Assembly: GCA_021299095.1 (NCBI GenBank)
Contig: JAJTFW010000024.1
Location: forward strand, 1-40,461
Length of the DNA stretch: 40,461 nucleotides
From: Sphingobacteriales bacterium
GTDB taxonomy: Bacteria; Bacteroidota; Bacteroidia; AKYH767-A; OLB10
Direction of reading: 5' to 3'
How positions within the stretch are numbered: the first letter of the stretch is position 1; every line of letters begins with the position of its first letter. Below, one piece after another: positions 24,485 to 31,058 of the stretch. Both the position numbers and the translations under genes were made by a program. A model generated the notes under the pieces. It was given only the letters and a program-made list of their open reading frames with translations. It did no database searches and had not been told where the DNA came from.

Positions 24485-25595
24485 GTGAAGCAAAAACAGG
24501 ATAACATCGTTTGTTCCTTCTGCGGCCGCGACAAGAGTCAGGCCAATGTGCTTATTGCTGGCATAAGTGGTCACATCTGTGAGCAATGTGTCGCACAGGC
24601 GCAAACGATTATCAGCGAGGAGACGGACCAAAAGCTGAAGTCCAGCATCGGCACCCCGCTTACCTTGCCGAAGCCTGCTGAAATCCGGAAGTTTCTGGAT
24701 GAATACGTGATAGGTCAGGAACATGCGAAAAAAGTTCTGCACCATTGCCAAGTTGCTGAAGGTTCCTTTTTGCATTGCCGATGCGACTGTACTTACAGAA
24801 GCCGGTTATGTCGGAGAAGATGTTGAACACGTATTGGCCCGTTTGCTCCAGGCCGCCGATTACGATGTTGCTGCTGCCGAGCGCGGAATCGTGTTCATCG
24901 ATGAAATCGATAAGATTGCACGAAAGGGCGACAATCCGTCCATCACCCGCGATGTTTCAGGTGAAGGCGTACAGCAGGGGCTATTGAAGATGCTCGAGAG
25001 TTCGGTGGTCAATGTTCCACCTCAAGGCGGACGCAAGCACCCCGAGCAAAAACTCATTCCGCTCAATACGCAGAATATCCTGTTCGTGTGTGGAGGAGCA
25101 TTTGATGGCATCGACAAGATCATCCGCCGCCGCCTACAGGCCAATGCCATCGGGTATGGCAAAAAGGACGGATCGGAGGTTGATCAGGAGAATGTTGTAC
25201 GTTATGTCAGTCCTGCCGATTTGAAGACGTTCGGATTGATTCCGGAATTGATCGGTCGACTGCCGGTCATCACCCATCTCATGCCTTTGGATAAAGCTGC
25301 ATTGCGCCGCATCCTGACCGAACCCAAAAATGCACTCACCCGGCAGTACGAAAAGCTGTTCGACCTCGAAGGCGTAAAGCTTTCGTTTTCCGATGAGGTG
25401 TTGGACCATATCGTTGAGAAGGCCATCGAGTTCAAGTTGGGCGCCAGGGGGCTGCGCAGCATCTGCGAGGCCATCATGCTTGATGCGATGTTTGAACTAC
25501 CGGGCTCAAAATCCGTGAAGGAATTCAGGGTGACACTCGAGTATGCCATTGAAAAGCTGAATCAGTCGAGCATTCAGCAGTTACGGGTAGCCTGA
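24485..25595 (+). pseudogene. clpX: clpX, ATPase subunit, disrupted by internal deletion and frameshift
   Basis: ClpX unfolds substrates for ClpP. The first frame (GTG 24485) encodes an intact zinc-binding domain (Cys10, Cys13, Cys32, Cys35) and continues to [13 protein letters not shown], ending near 24739. From 24741 a different frame picks up at [20 protein letters not shown] and runs through the pore loop GYVG, Walker [11 protein letters not shown] and the C-terminal domain to 25595. Between these, roughly 40-45 residues expected in every ClpX are missing, including the Walker A loop (G-x-T-G-x-G-K-T). The deletion is not a multiple of three. As written no functional ClpX could be made from this copy. 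It may be an assembly error, or a real lesion with another copy elsewhere. The convergent folA stop abuts the clpX stop. Confidence 0.9.
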
Positions 25596-26225: not shown

Positions 26226-26636
26226 ATGAACGGAATAAAAAGCCTTCACAATATTCTTCTCGCTTTTATGCTCATAACGCTCTCGTCATGCGACAAGGAG
26301 CCTGGCGATGGCGGAAGCTCTGAAATACGCGGCACCGTCGTCCAGCGCGATTACATTCTTTTCCCCGGGATTTATACCGATGGTCCTGCCCAGGAACTAG
26401 ACGTGTATATCTGCTACGGAACCGATGACAATGCCGTTGATGATCGCACGCGAACCAGTTTCGATGGTTCGTTCAAGTTTTCAGGCTTGCGAAAAGGGGA
26501 TTACCGCATCTTCATCTACACGGAGGATACGGCACTGACCAATTACGGAAATCAAGTTCCGGTGCAGGTTGACGCGCGTATCGATAAAAATCACAGCGAG
26601 CGTAACCTGGGAGTCCTGATGACTCATGCGCTTTGA
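26226..26636 (+). CDS. Small lipoprotein with Ig-like/carboxypeptidase-regulatory-like domain
   Basis: 136 residues. The signal peptide ends in the lipobox LSSCDK, so the mature protein starts at Cys and is membrane-anchored. A single beta-sandwich domain follows (about 35-130): IRGTVVQRDY..., then FDGSFKFSGLRKGDYRIFIY, the pattern of carboxypeptidase-regulatory-like or SpaA-type domains. No catalytic residues. First gene of a tight four-gene operon (5 bases before the VTC gene), so it probably acts with the polyphosphate/CotH module. Function unknown. Confidence 0.75.
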   Translation: MNGIKSLHNILLAFMLITLSSCDKEPGDGGSSEIRGTVVQRDYILFPGIYTDGPAQELDVYICYGTDDNAVDDRTRTSFDGSFKFSGLRKGDYRIFIYTEDTALTNYGNQVPVQVDARIDKNHSERNLGVLMTHAL

Positions 26637-26641
26637 GGAAA

Positions 26642-27406
26642 ATGGAACCAGGAAACGGATTTCAGTCGTTTGTGGGAGTTAGTCTGCGGGAAATGGATTC
26701 CGTAGCACTGATCAATCGCATCGATACCAAATTCGTATTTCCCCACTCCAGGCTTGAAGACGTGCTATCGGGTATGGAGTCAAGGTACAGCGTACTTGAG
26801 ATTGATGGTGTTCGTGTGCATCCCTACGATACAGTGTATTTCGATGATGCTGTGCTTGGTTTATACCTTGCTCATCACAACGGCCGGGCTAACAGGTTAA
26901 AGCTTAGGTTGCGACACTATGGTAAATCGGATGTAGCATTCATGGAAGTGAAGCGAAAGACGAATACGGGCAGGACCATCAAGTCGCGGAAGCGCACCAG
27001 TCTTCCACAACGCCGGCTCACCGAGGCGCAGAGGGTGTTTTTTAATAATCAAACAGGTGCAATCGGGGATACTTGGCGTTTCTCTATGCAAATCCGATTT
27101 AATCGTGTGACTTTTGTATCGTTCAATCCTTCCGAGCGTGTCACGCTCGACTTTAGCCTCGAAGCGCAAGACGAAACCGGTAACGTGCAATTCCCCGGAT
27201 TGGTCATTGCTGAGGTGAAACAAGGTGGAAAGGCAAACTCCGCATTTTTATCGCGCATGCATGAATTGAAGATCCGGCCTTTTTCCGTTTCAAAATATTG
27301 CCTGGGCATCAGTGCGCTCAGAAACGACATCAAGAAAAATAACTTCTTGCCGCAGCACCGTATGCTGAAGGCTCTATTACCCCAATTAAACCATGGAACT
27401 CTTTGA
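26642..27406 (+). CDS. VTC-domain protein, polyphosphate polymerase-like
   Basis: 254 residues. Resembles the catalytic tunnel domain of yeast Vtc4: INRIDTKFVF (residues 24-33), DTVYFDD, LYLAHHNGRANRLKLRLRHY (74-93), FMEVKRKTNTGRTIKSRKR and the second Glu-x-Lys IAEVKQGGK near 190, then FSVSKYCLGI. The basic (Arg/Lys) and Glu residues that bind triphosphate and metal are present. The yeast enzyme makes polyphosphate from ATP; that reaction here is inferred. It lacks the SPX and membrane parts of the yeast subunit. ATG 26642 is used; a TTG at 26633 overlapping the previous stop is possible. It overlaps DUF4956 by 14 bases. Confidence 0.85.
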   Translation: MEPGNGFQSFVGVSLREMDSVALINRIDTKFVFPHSRLEDVLSGMESRYSVLEIDGVRVHPYDTVYFDDAVLGLYLAHHNGRANRLKLRLRHYGKSDVAFMEVKRKTNTGRTIKSRKRTSLPQRRLTEAQRVFFNNQTGAIGDTWRFSMQIRFNRVTFVSFNPSERVTLDFSLEAQDETGNVQFPGLVIAEVKQGGKANSAFLSRMHELKIRPFSVSKYCLGISALRNDIKKNNFLPQHRMLKALLPQLNHGTL

Positions 27407-27965
27407 CAAGCTTGGAGAAAAATTCTTTCTCCGCCTACTGATAGATCTTTTTAGCGTAGCACTGATTGTTCGTGCGATATACTTGCCGAATTACAGAAAG
27501 CGTGATCACATGTTCACGTTTTTCATGTTCAATCTTGTCATTTACATCATTTCCTACTTGTTGAGCAAGGTTGACATGTCATTCGGTGCTGCGTTCGGAC
27601 TGTTCGCAGTGTTCTCCCTCTTACGCTACCGAACAGAAAACATTTCAGAAAAAGACATGACCTATCTGTTGCTTTTCATTGCAATGGGGCTGGTCAATGC
27701 CACAGTAAAAGGAACCTATTTCGAATCCTTTCTAATCAACGGAATCCTCGTTCTTGCTGCATGGATCCTTGATGGTAATGTGCTCATCCGGAATGAAAAG
27801 ACACAGCTGCTCCAATACGAGCGGATTGAAAACATCCATGAAAATAAACGCGAGGAATTGCTGGAAGATTTACGCGCACGAACCGGCTTGGATATTCACA
27901 AAGTGTCTGTGGTGCATATCGATTTCATCCGCGATAGTGCCGAGCTGAAGATCTATTATTACTGA
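27393..27965 (+). CDS. DUF4956 membrane protein
   Basis: 190 residues with four or five predicted membrane helices between residues 12 and 130 (LIDLFSVALIVRAIYL; FMFNLVIYIISYLL; AAFGLFAVFSLLRY; LLLFIAMGLVNATV; FLINGILVLAAWIL). The FGLFAVFSLLRYRT stretch is typical of DUF4956. The C-terminal about 55 residues are soluble. Known bacterial neighbours of this family are VTC-type and CotH-type genes, as here. It overlaps the VTC gene by 14 bases and the next gene by 1 (TGATG), indicating coupled translation. It could serve as the membrane partner for the polymerase; that is inference. Confidence 0.85.
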   Translation: MELFDKLGEKFFLRLLIDLFSVALIVRAIYLPNYRKRDHMFTFFMFNLVIYIISYLLSKVDMSFGAAFGLFAVFSLLRYRTENISEKDMTYLLLFIAMGLVNATVKGTYFESFLINGILVLAAWILDGNVLIRNEKTQLLQYERIENIHENKREELLEDLRARTGLDIHKVSVVHIDFIRDSAELKIYYY

Positions 27966-28663
27966 TGGCATTGACATTCCGTATCTGTTCGATCCTTGTT
28001 GTGTGCGTGTTTACCGCAGGAGCTTTGCATGGACAGACTTACAGCCAAGGACAATACTGGTGTTCAATCACAGCGGAGGGAAATCTTCCGGGGCCGTACA
28101 AAGCGGCTTTGCAGGTAGAATCGCGGACAGATCTTTCCGAGCGAATGCTGGTGAATCTGTTTGCCAACTTATCTGTTCAACGTGAATGGAGTGATTATAT
28201 CAGTACCGAACTCCACTACAGGGTTATGGTGAGGGATCCCGGTACCGATGCGGAGAAGGCTCAACGGCTCATGTTGGATTTGACCGGTGTAAAACCGATC
28301 GGTAAAACAACTGTGTCTTTGCGGTTTCGGCTCGGACAGGAGGATGAGGCGGGTGCTGATGCAGATGGTTTTTTTGTTTCGGGAGGTTCTGCCGTTTTCA
28401 GACAGAAACTTTCTGTTAAGCGTGACATCGGACGCGCTCAGCTATCGCTCAGTGTGGAGCAATTCGAGACCATTAACCGATCCGGATTCAATCCCGATCA
28501 GTTGCGCGTAGTTCTGGGTTCTGAATTCAAAGTCTCGAAACGCCAGCGGATTTCCGTTTTTCTCATGTCGCAGCACCTGGCATCTGGGACAAACCGGCTG
28601 AACTTCGGTACAGGTTATACGTACCGCTTCAAATCGCTTAAGCGAAAAAAGTCGGAACAGTAA
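27965..28663 (+). CDS. Predicted outer-membrane beta-barrel protein (DUF2490-like)
   Basis: 232 residues. A signal peptide (1-23) ends near LHGQ. The rest is a series of alternating polar/hydrophobic strands (GQYWCSITAEGNLPGPYKAA, RVMVRDPG, VSLRFRLGQ, RISVFLMSQHL) ending in NFGTGYTYRFKSL, like DUF2490-type barrels that report on outer-membrane structure. Family assignment is tentative. Its start overlaps the DUF4956 stop, so it is the last gene of the operon starting at 26226. Confidence 0.65.
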   Translation: MALTFRICSILVVCVFTAGALHGQTYSQGQYWCSITAEGNLPGPYKAALQVESRTDLSERMLVNLFANLSVQREWSDYISTELHYRVMVRDPGTDAEKAQRLMLDLTGVKPIGKTTVSLRFRLGQEDEAGADADGFFVSGGSAVFRQKLSVKRDIGRAQLSLSVEQFETINRSGFNPDQLRVVLGSEFKVSKRQRISVFLMSQHLASGTNRLNFGTGYTYRFKSLKRKKSEQ

Positions 28664-28688
28664 AACGGATCCCTTTCGGAAACCGTTT
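28663..28688. terminator. weak inverted repeat between convergent genes
   Basis: AAACGG / CCGTTT with an inner TCC/GGA pair, loop AT-rich, between the VTC operon stop and the cotH stop. A possible weak bidirectional terminator. Confidence 0.3.
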
Positions 28689-28709
28689 GAATCAGGTGTG
28701 TATCGCCAA

Positions 28710-31058
28710 TCAGTGTCTTACGATCAGTTTTTTGACCGTTTCACCACAGCGGATCAGGTAAACCCCAGCACTCCAGCTTTGTGTATCGAAACTCTGGTAG
28801 GGCAGAAATCTGCGTCGCTCAATAAGTTGTCCCATGGCATCGAGTACATCCAGATCACGTTCCTGTCTATCGCGGATTTGTACCTGAACCAAATCGTTGG
28901 CCGGATTGGGATATATGCTAAGTTGAGCCGGAATACTGAATTCCTCTTCCAATAGGGACGAGGTGTTGTTGTTGGCCGAAAAGGTGTGTGGCTGAATGAC
29001 GAAGTATCCTGTCCCATTCGGGTTACGAGCCAATCCGAGGTTAGCGGTTTGTTGTCCCCAGGTTAGCGAGTCAACAATTGCCGATGCAGGATCAAGGAGG
29101 TAAAGCACTTCTCCTGTGCCCGATAATTTGAAGTTTGCATGGAAAGGTCCTTGGCTGCTGTCTTCGTCTGCCCAGATGATCAGGTAATCGTCAGGTTGAA
29201 TGATTGTTCCTGCAGGAATCGGCCATTTGTCGAGATTCAGGGTGTTGTCGGTCAAGTAGTAACCACTGACATCCACCGGTACGGATGATTTGTTGTATAA
29301 CTCAATCCAGTCGTCATACTCGCCAAAGTTGTCGGCAACCGTGCTGATATTGGTAGCCATAATTTCATTGATAACCACCTCTGAGGCGGCAGAGCTCTGC
29401 GGTGCTACGGTATAAACAAACACGTTGTGTTCGGCACCTTCCGGTAGGTAACGAACACTTTTAGCCGTGTTTGCCGCCACTGCAGCAACGTAAAATCGAA
29501 CCGGTGTTCCTGCAGCATAAGCTGGAATCAGTGCAGCATAAATTCCATCTGATGCCAGGCTGTCGTCATGTAGACCATCATCGTACATCGGAGTTTTCAG
29601 GAATTTTCCAGCGAGCCCGGGGCAAAAATAGAGCTGCACATTATCGATGCCGTTTGCGGAGCTGACTGTAGCTCGGATGTTGACCAATTGCTGATCGTTC
29701 GGTTGTGCAAATTCCACGCCTCCGGCGTAATAAGAGGCTTGTGAAATCACTGGCGCAATTGCCTGTATTTCGGTATTGCTGTTCAGGAAATTCTTTCGGG
29801 TTGTTACAAAGTTCTTTAGTACCTGCACCTCGTTCGACCATTGGGTGTATGTATACATTTTCTTGGGGTCATTCTGGACGACGGTGTCAACCAGGCTACG
29901 GAAAGCATTGAAGGTTGAATTGGTGAGCGCAGTGTCGAATTCTTCGGTAATTATTGTCCGCATGTGTGCCAGATAGCGCTGCCGGAGGGAGGGTACATTC
30001 AGGAGTTTGTTCAGCAGAGGATAGTTCACATTCGTAGCATTGTAGAACACGCCCCATGTGGTGGCGGGGGTAGGCTCCAAGGCTGAGTTTCCATCGTATT
30101 CATGCGGTACCATTCTTCCGCTTACTTCGTCGAAGTATACATAGTAATCCATTTTGCCTTTGAACACATAGCTGTCATCATCGGTCCAGGCAAGTTCCGA
30201 GGCCAGATACCACAAGGTGCGGTCCAGATCGAGGTAGTTGGCGAGTGTATCTTCAAGCGCCACAATCGGAGTGTTATTCAATTTGTCGCAAAGCCTCACA
30301 AGGTATGACCAGGGTTGTACAAAACTGTTGGATTCTTTCAGCGTGTAATAGGTCTTGTATATGGTTGTGTCTGGAGACAAATAATTCAGTCCTGCTGTGC
30401 CATCTCCCCATCCGCCGCCGCCGCCACCGGATCCGGCAGGTCGGTCGGCCCTCCACCAGATTCCATCATTGCTGAAGTACCATTCTTCCAGAAAGTCTTT
30501 GTTGAGTTGCTGCACGTTCGAATACAACCCCCAGTTACCGCCGTTCAAGTATAATTTCACAAAGCTGGTTCTTGCGGTCGGACAGTGCTTCTTGATCATG
30601 CTTGTGTAGAACACTTCGCGCATCATCGAAGGGTCTTGCGCAGCATTGTTCAGTTTGAGTGTGCTGTAACCGTTGAAATCAGCTCCTGGTCTCCAAAAAT
30701 CAAGTTCAATTTTGAAGGATTTTTTCTGGGATGTACCGGTGTTGTATGAGGTGTTTCCGCGAAAACGGACTCCGGCACTGTCGAAGCTCATGCCATCAAT
30801 CGTGACTGTGCCTGGTAAATACGTTTTTGAGGCGTAGTTGTTGGTTAACTGGGTCCAGAACGTCGGTGAAGCAAAGGTGATATCGACTCTACGAATCAGC
30901 GATTGATCGTAGTAGCCTGTGTTCGGTAAATCGCCGGTCAGTAGCATGCGTCCGTCTGGACTGAAATGCATGTGATCCGGTAATTGCTGGGCTAAGGACG
31001 TACCAGTAATGAAATAAGCCGTGGTGAATACCACCAGGTAACGCAAGAACTGATGCAT
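28710..31058 (-). CDS. CotH kinase-family protein with lamin-tail domain and T9SS tail
   Basis: 782 residues. Signal peptide 1-24 (TSLAQQ). The CotH kinase-like domain (about 50-430) has GVRFRGNTSYNTG (96-108), KKSFKIELDF (112-121), NNAAQDPSMMREVFYTSMI, WTDDDSYVFKGKMDYYVYFD (291-310) and the acidic HEYDGNS (319-325); CotH proteins of spores are atypical protein kinases. A Gly-rich loop (about 208-217) interrupts it. An Ig-like region follows, then a lamin-tail (LTD) domain (about 560-690), SEVVINEIMATN...WIELYNKS, and a T9SS tail with YPNPANDLVQV and GVYLIR. Predicted extracellular kinase-like protein. It converges with the VTC operon. Confidence 0.85.
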   Translation of the reverse strand: MHQFLRYLVVFTTAYFITGTSLAQQLPDHMHFSPDGRMLLTGDLPNTGYYDQSLIRRVDITFASPTFWTQLTNNYASKTYLPGTVTIDGMSFDSAGVRFRGNTSYNTGTSQKKSFKIELDFWRPGADFNGYSTLKLNNAAQDPSMMREVFYTSMIKKHCPTARTSFVKLYLNGGNWGLYSNVQQLNKDFLEEWYFSNDGIWWRADRPAGSGGGGGGWGDGTAGLNYLSPDTTIYKTYYTLKESNSFVQPWSYLVRLCDKLNNTPIVALEDTLANYLDLDRTLWYLASELAWTDDDSYVFKGKMDYYVYFDEVSGRMVPHEYDGNSALEPTPATTWGVFYNATNVNYPLLNKLLNVPSLRQRYLAHMRTIITEEFDTALTNSTFNAFRSLVDTVVQNDPKKMYTYTQWSNEVQVLKNFVTTRKNFLNSNTEIQAIAPVISQASYYAGGVEFAQPNDQQLVNIRATVSSANGIDNVQLYFCPGLAGKFLKTPMYDDGLHDDSLASDGIYAALIPAYAAGTPVRFYVAAVAANTAKSVRYLPEGAEHNVFVYTVAPQSSAASEVVINEIMATNISTVADNFGEYDDWIELYNKSSVPVDVSGYYLTDNTLNLDKWPIPAGTIIQPDDYLIIWADEDSSQGPFHANFKLSGTGEVLYLLDPASAIVDSLTWGQQTANLGLARNPNGTGYFVIQPHTFSANNNTSSLLEEEFSIPAQLSIYPNPANDLVQVQIRDRQERDLDVLDAMGQLIERRRFLPYQSFDTQSWSAGVYLIRCGETVKKLIVRH

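Follow-up and report, generated by a model that had tools for sequence, protein, structure and literature searches.

Whether a predicted polyphosphate polymerase, a set of envelope proteins and a secreted kinase-like protein work as one system is the question raised by a gene cluster of a Sphingobacteriales bacterium (assembly GCA_021299095.1), which was analyzed here within positions 1 to 40,461 of contig JAJTFW010000024.1 (40,461 nucleotides, hereafter the window). The cluster encodes a small lipoprotein (hereafter LP), a VTC-domain protein, a DUF4956 membrane protein and a DUF2490 outer-membrane barrel, and faces the gene of a CotH kinase-like protein with a type IX secretion system (T9SS) tail. 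The gene order, protein families, residue conservation and co-occurrence described below are, in our opinion, best explained by an envelope-spanning module for the export and use of a phosphate polymer, an explanation that we hold to be about as probable as not.

Conservation and Co-inheritance of the Module

A survey of co-occurrence across relatives, which had been suggested as a check when the cluster was first proposed as a surface phosphorylation or phosphate-polymer system, revealed a strong association. Of 61 genomes (60 relatives plus the one that holds the window), 33 encode VTC and 35 encode LP, and LP was present in all 33 VTC genomes versus two of the 28 VTC-free ones (G035 and G042), with a Fisher p of 3e-15 that ignores kinship and an LP search that used a 27-sequence profile itself built from VTC neighbourhoods. 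The same was observed at the order level (42 genomes), where LP occurred in 25/25 VTC genomes versus 1/17 VTC-free genomes (Fisher p 1e-10, under the same limits). The informative side of this statistic is the rarity of LP where VTC is absent. In three VTC genomes (G048, G049 and G060), LP is located on a separate contig from VTC. In addition, every VTC genome in a phylum-wide sample (37 of the 198 genomes) encodes both DUF4956 and CotH, and DUF4956 was found within 1 kb of 39 of the 41 VTC places in that sample.

Thirty-three VTC neighbourhoods from relatives (L032-L064, three of which, L033, L042 and L064, end at contig boundaries) contain DUF4956 in 31 cases, LP in 28, DUF2490 in 26, each time immediately after DUF4956, and CotH in 17. 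Such repeatedly conserved neighbourhoods contradict the view that the genes are chance neighbours without a common role; that view would suit the convergent CotH gene of the window, but 3.8 CotH copies per VTC genome would by chance place CotH within 5 kb of VTC in only about 1% of cases, and we give it hardly any credence. As a separate observation, 17 of the 33 loci (including L035, L037 and L053) have a gene for a secreted YD-repeat-like protein, with weak RHS/MORN matches, lying between those of LP and VTC; this extra member is absent from the window and its genus.

Gene Arrangement in the Window

The first four genes form a compact operon at 26226-28663, on which the CotH gene converges (Table 1); the four-gene operon facing a T9SS-type CotH/LTD gene, as pictured in the sequence-only reading, is thereby borne out, with all five genes in the places given there. 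The listed open reading frame of VTC starts at TTG 26633, whereas alignment of relatives favours ATG 26642, which leaves 5 bases after the LP stop; with the TTG start, the two genes would overlap. As read from the sequence, there is a 14-base overlap between VTC and DUF4956, and DUF4956 and DUF2490 share a TGATG as stop and start. The coupled junctions, and the co-expression deduced from them, stand for the four operon genes, which overlap or lie at most 5 bases apart, and not for CotH, which as a convergent gene on the opposite strand cannot be on the same transcript in this genome. Convergent CotH genes were also observed in L032 and L034, both of the same-genus relatives with sufficient contig. 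Hairpin folding of the DUF2490-CotH intergenic region, examined for a terminator, was no better than that of shuffles (z -0.59), and promoter and terminator scans gave no signal beyond shuffle level. NCBIfam holds no name for the LP, VTC, DUF4956 or DUF2490 proteins of the window. Of the two partners that had been considered novel, LP does represent an unnamed family, while the barrel belongs to a Pfam family that is named.

Table 1. Genes of the module and their positions in the window
Gene product	Position	Strand	Assignment
LP, lipoprotein, 136 aa	26226-26636	+	lipobox at Cys22; beta-sandwich resembling prealbumin/CNA-B, with nothing beyond weak matches in Pfam
VTC-domain protein, predicted polyphosphate polymerase	26642-27406	+	PF09359, 3.6e-21
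DUF4956 predicted inner-membrane protein	27393-27965	+	PF16316, 1.5e-50
DUF2490 outer-membrane beta-barrel, porin-like	27965-28663	+	PF10677, 1.1e-17
CotH kinase-like + lamin-tail domain (LTD) + C-terminal T9SS sorting domain	28710-31058	-	PF08757, 5.8e-46; LTD, 4.2e-19; Por_Secre_tail, 1.2e-8

The Predicted Polymerase and Its Probable Membrane Partner

Judging from its family and residues, the VTC protein would polymerise polyphosphate from ATP on the cytoplasmic side of the inner membrane. It scores 76.2 bits in Pfam against a cut-off of 23, and 31 columns are invariant in 33 VTC sequences, including K30, R89, R91, E102, K104, K106, R155, E191, K193 and K218. The single VTC sequence gave no match in the PDB, and the structures of Vtc4 were found by profile comparison, with a weak best match of 6e-5 in which the stretch RLRHYG aligns with RLRWYG of Vtc4. 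R89 and R91, invariant in 33/33 sequences, are aligned to R264 and R266 of Vtc4, the arginines of RLRWYG; the position of Vtc4 E426 was left unplaced by the tool alignment. These three Vtc4 residues are the ones mutated in an inactive VTC complex (PMC9911596).

It might be argued that the bacterial VTC domain is another tunnel-fold (CYTH-like) enzyme, for example a phosphohydrolase or a transferase making a phosphate-containing glycan, and not a polymerase. The published neighbours in Gram-positive bacteria are polysaccharide genes (PMC7112168) and the match to the Vtc4 structures is weak, both of which would agree with such an enzyme; the Pfam score well above cut-off and the invariant basic residues aligned to R264/R266 speak against it, and we regard it as improbable. 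Another polymerase, PPK1, is also encoded in the genome, so VTC would not be the sole polyphosphate synthase, which fits a special destination for its product.

DUF4956 may be the membrane partner of VTC and, by analogy with the membrane-spanning section of yeast VTC, probably moves the growing chain outward. Its predicted structure consists of five helices and a C-terminal beta-alpha-beta-beta domain. A known channel fold was considered for this model and rejected: no Foldseek hit reached E 0.001, and the best VIA-align Z of 7.7 (AtALMT9) is under the level that the tool treats as meaningful for helical models. DUF4956 was found without VTC in 22 of the 198 genomes, 18 of which have CotH. Eight opened loci of such DUF4956 genes proved to be other clusters, with CotH non-adjacent in seven; the exception, L163, belongs to a VTC genome in which this DUF4956 is a second copy, with CotH beside it. 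As DUF4956 is thus a member of other, VTC-free clusters, it is not VTC-specific. An apparent DUF4956 fusion in L057 was discarded, since by coordinates the long open reading frame overlaps VTC in another frame.

Two particular contexts of DUF4956 were observed. A conserved cluster surrounds it in L158, L159, L160 and L164, where VTC and CotH are not nearby; the neighbours in L158 are YceI, DUF6580, an HlyD-like protein and a short-chain dehydrogenase. In L161 (4412-7442), the neighbours of DUF4956 are a calcineurin-like phosphoesterase and an unnamed protein of 341 aa.

The Outer-Membrane Barrel and the Lipoprotein

The DUF2490 model (pLDDT 88) comprises a signal helix and 11 strands and matches 12-strand porins, the top VIA-align results being KdgM (Z 16.6; 2.3 A over 156 residues), NanC (16.3), NalP (15.9) and VhGalP (15.8), of which KdgM, NanC and VhGalP are acidic-sugar porins. 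The likeness to KdgM is one of fold alone, as a Pfam scan with E values up to 1 matched DUF2490 only. KdgM and NanC represent the closest solved fold of the model and resemble it in their pore-facing arginines, whereas DUF2490 is a different Pfam family, with 7-11% identity. The family is listed as TC 1.B.81 (Transporter Classification), a group of putative porins whose function has not been established (PMC4827864).

Strand parity predicts that R54, R86, R120, R146 and R181 are all on the polar, pore-facing side of the barrel. When 44 module-type copies were compared with 20 DUF2490 copies from elsewhere, R86 was found in 42/44 versus 0/20, and position 124 was Glu in 20/20 of the others and in none of the 44; position 105 showed the opposite trend, 23 of the 27 close copies having Asp and 19 of the 20 others Gln. 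A few charged positions thus distinguish the predicted pore of the module from the others, leaving it, on balance, slightly more basic. A role as a polyanion pore fits the modelled barrel, which is suggestive, and the pore lined with conserved arginines would pass the polyanion over the outer membrane.

LP carries 13 invariant residues over 27 sequences and shows weak matches to several prealbumin-like Pfam families; one relative matched TIGR04134 at 2.1e-4 with a score of 21.3, under the cut-off of 39.8. Lys is present at +3 from the lipid-bearing Cys (C-x-K) in 27/27 sequences, an acidic residue at +4 in 18/27, and acidic residues at both +4 and +5 in 8/27. A signal for the export of surface lipoproteins, C-x-K-(D/E)2 after the lipobox, has been described (PMC5080379), and the N-terminus of LP resembles it, with a strict fit in those 8 of 27. 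By this pattern, LP would be a small surface-facing lipoprotein of the outer membrane and may hold or receive the polymer.

LP and DUF2490 could instead help T9SS cargo to exit or to be anchored, with VTC-DUF4956 modifying the cargo or the anchor. PorP-like barrels have been reported as an aid for type B T9SS cargo (PMC9143113), and in many loci a T9SS-tailed gene, CotH or other cargo, is located directly upstream of LP. However, the sole Pfam match of the barrel is DUF2490, DUF4956 and DUF2490 are listed together as BT3498-BT3499 of Bacteroides thetaiotaomicron (PMC10434189), and the core families occur in Bacteroides ihuae, a genome with no SprA match; the latter two argue that the barrel is not dependent on T9SS. 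We consider such an aid rather doubtful.

The CotH Protein

The CotH domain scores 157.9 bits (PF08757) versus a cut-off of 23.8, the tail matches Por_Secre_tail/TIGR04183 above cut-offs, and SprA_N is found in the same genome at 3.8e-175. In relatives, CotH mostly precedes LP in the same orientation, in some loci by only a few bases; it was also found in 5/14 (L102-L115) and 4/10 (L127-L136) further VTC loci, all of them hand-chosen. Module-adjacent CotH proteins have at least three layouts, among them CotH-LTD-T9SS, LTD-CHB_HEX-CotH with a sub-threshold T9SS tail, and a short CotH, and in a tree of 33 CotH domains the module neighbours fell into at least three supported lineages, intermixed with non-neighbours. 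That different CotHs are repeatedly found beside the module argues for a shared role.

The active site was compared with that of Bacillus CotH. In the family alignment, both aspartates (D295 and D322) are kept, Asp304 replaces the triad's Asn and Tyr321 the Trp of the adenine clamp; position 304 is Asp in the window's genus and Asn in most other layouts. A pairwise alignment to Bacillus CotH (PDB 5JD9; key residues from PMC12189002) shifts the last motif by two residues relative to the family alignment, and the loss of metal binding that it seemed to imply, through an apparent Asp to Glu change, was rejected, since the family alignment retains the Asp. Residue changes abolishing metal binding, which would have spoken against the sequence-only reading, were accordingly not seen, and the expected catalytic residues are not visibly lost. 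With the invariant residues of VTC and the aspartates of CotH kept, neither enzyme appears dead.

Other T9SS-tailed proteins were observed close by: in L053 (2672-5369), arylsulfotransferase-like and starch-binding-like proteins with T9SS tails are encoded just upstream of CotH, and T9SS-tailed proteins of similar sizes occupy the same place in L035, L060 and L062.

CotH is not confined to VTC genomes, occurring in 44 of 161 VTC-free genomes versus 37/37 with VTC in the phylum sample and, by genus, in 31/75 without VTC versus 28/28 with it. This bears on the alternative that two devices stand side by side, in which VTC-DUF4956 stores periplasmic polyphosphate for phosphate supply and LP-DUF2490-CotH is a separate surface unit whose CotH uses a donor of its own to phosphorylate a protein or a glycan. 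Besides the frequency of CotH in VTC-free genomes, such a division would account for LP-DUF2490 pairs, with or without CotH, that lack a nearby VTC (L099, L100, L101, L117 and L119), and for the control genome Bacteroides ihuae, in which VTC, DUF4956 and DUF2490 are present and CotH is absent. It does not sit well with DUF2490 directly behind DUF4956 in 26 of the 33 VTC neighbourhoods or with LP in every VTC genome of the 61, and we consider it possible, if unlikely.

Genomic Context in the Window and in Other Lineages

In different lineages, the same core is accompanied by different trans-envelope parts. The DUF2490 and LP profiles gave no match in ten chosen distant VTC loci (L127-L136); by homology, an HlyD-related protein adjoins VTC or DUF4956 in nine of these ten, seven of the proteins forming one BLAST family weakly placed by Pfam and two scoring above the HlyD_3 cut-off. 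In L163, a Porin_O_P protein (2.5e-7) is encoded between DUF4956 and CotH, with overlapping ends. As an observation in its own right, the HlyD-like family, of about 355 aa, lies directly before VTC in this second Bacteroidota lineage.

In the window, the module is flanked by DHFR and ClpX genes on one side and by DinB-like and thymidylate synthase (ThyA) genes on the other, of which DHFR, DinB-like and ThyA were identified by Pfam scan and ClpX by comparison with a relative; there are no pel genes among these flanks. The clpX gene at 24485-25595 looks broken: compared with ClpX of L032, it lacks residues 100-143, Walker A motif included, and its two halves lie in separate reading frames; this is either a real lesion or an assembly fault, and same-genus relatives have full-length copies.

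The Proposed Route and Its Weak Points

Taken together, the envelope-spanning export-and-use module would start with polymer synthesis by VTC at the inner membrane, continue through DUF4956, DUF2490 and LP, and end with the T9SS-secreted CotH, which may act at the surface on or with the polymer as a phosphotransferase. The earlier picture of a polymer made inside and a kinase outside gains from the porin fold, the inward arginines and the HlyD-like and Porin_O_P neighbours, while the polymer and the phosphorylation keep the status of proposals. A bolder version, which we hold to be improbable as it stands, is that the exported polyphosphate itself is the phosphate or energy source with which the surface CotH phosphorylates surface proteins or glycans where ATP is lacking; phosphoanhydride bonds would then be shipped across both membranes, with VTC, DUF4956, DUF2490 and LP as the supply line.

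Several points weigh against the export-and-use module as a whole. The activities of its parts are all predicted; DUF4956 has no usable structural match; most of the pore arginines are common to DUF2490s from elsewhere and hence not specific to a polymer route; and the CotH gene of the window is on the opposite strand. In addition, the LP-DUF2490 pairs without a nearby VTC indicate that LP and the barrel may serve another purpose, Bacteroides ihuae does without CotH, and the kinship and profile origin that limit the Fisher values temper the co-occurrence of LP and VTC.

Relation to Known Systems and Significance

Accessory genes for CotH, a poly-phosphate polymerase (PPP) and DUF4956 have been reported beside pel in streptococci, clostridia and bifidobacteria (PMC7112168), and VTC and CotH neighbours were tabulated in C. 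perfringens (PMC2879425). The likeness to the Gram-positive cassette is that the same three families are encoded together; that cassette adjoins pelDEADAFG and DUF4832 in streptococci and clostridia, whereas none of the flanking genes identified here belongs to pel, and the module here is extended by the lipoprotein, the outer-membrane barrel and the T9SS tail of CotH. With the yeast VTC complex (Vtc1/3/4, PMC9911596), the module shares the VTC polymerase domain of the triphosphate tunnel metalloenzyme (TTM) type, matching residues and a separate trans-membrane partner; in contrast to yeast, neither SPX nor DUF202 was detected when the VTC and DUF4956 proteins were scanned against Pfam with E values as high as 1, and DUF4956 would take the membrane place. 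Similarly, the CotH domain and its two active-site aspartates are shared with the spore-coat kinase of Bacillus, whereas the protein here is fused to LTD and a T9SS tail and, in the family alignment, has Asp for Asn and Tyr for Trp. The adjacent DUF4956 and DUF2490 genes of B. thetaiotaomicron offer a further parallel, and PMC10434189 lists them as an expression change only, with no function given.

As CotH-VTC-DUF4956 neighbours were already known in Gram-positive bacteria, the novelty here is the outer-membrane version, and a search limited to openly licensed PMC papers turned up no account of the Bacteroidota arrangement that includes the barrel, the lipoprotein and the T9SS-tailed kinase-like protein. 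If the proposed module is true, it would name genes for the export of polyphosphate across the Gram-negative outer membrane and would give a role to DUF4956, DUF2490 and a new lipoprotein family. In addition, how secreted kinase-like proteins obtain phosphate once outside the cell would become directly testable.

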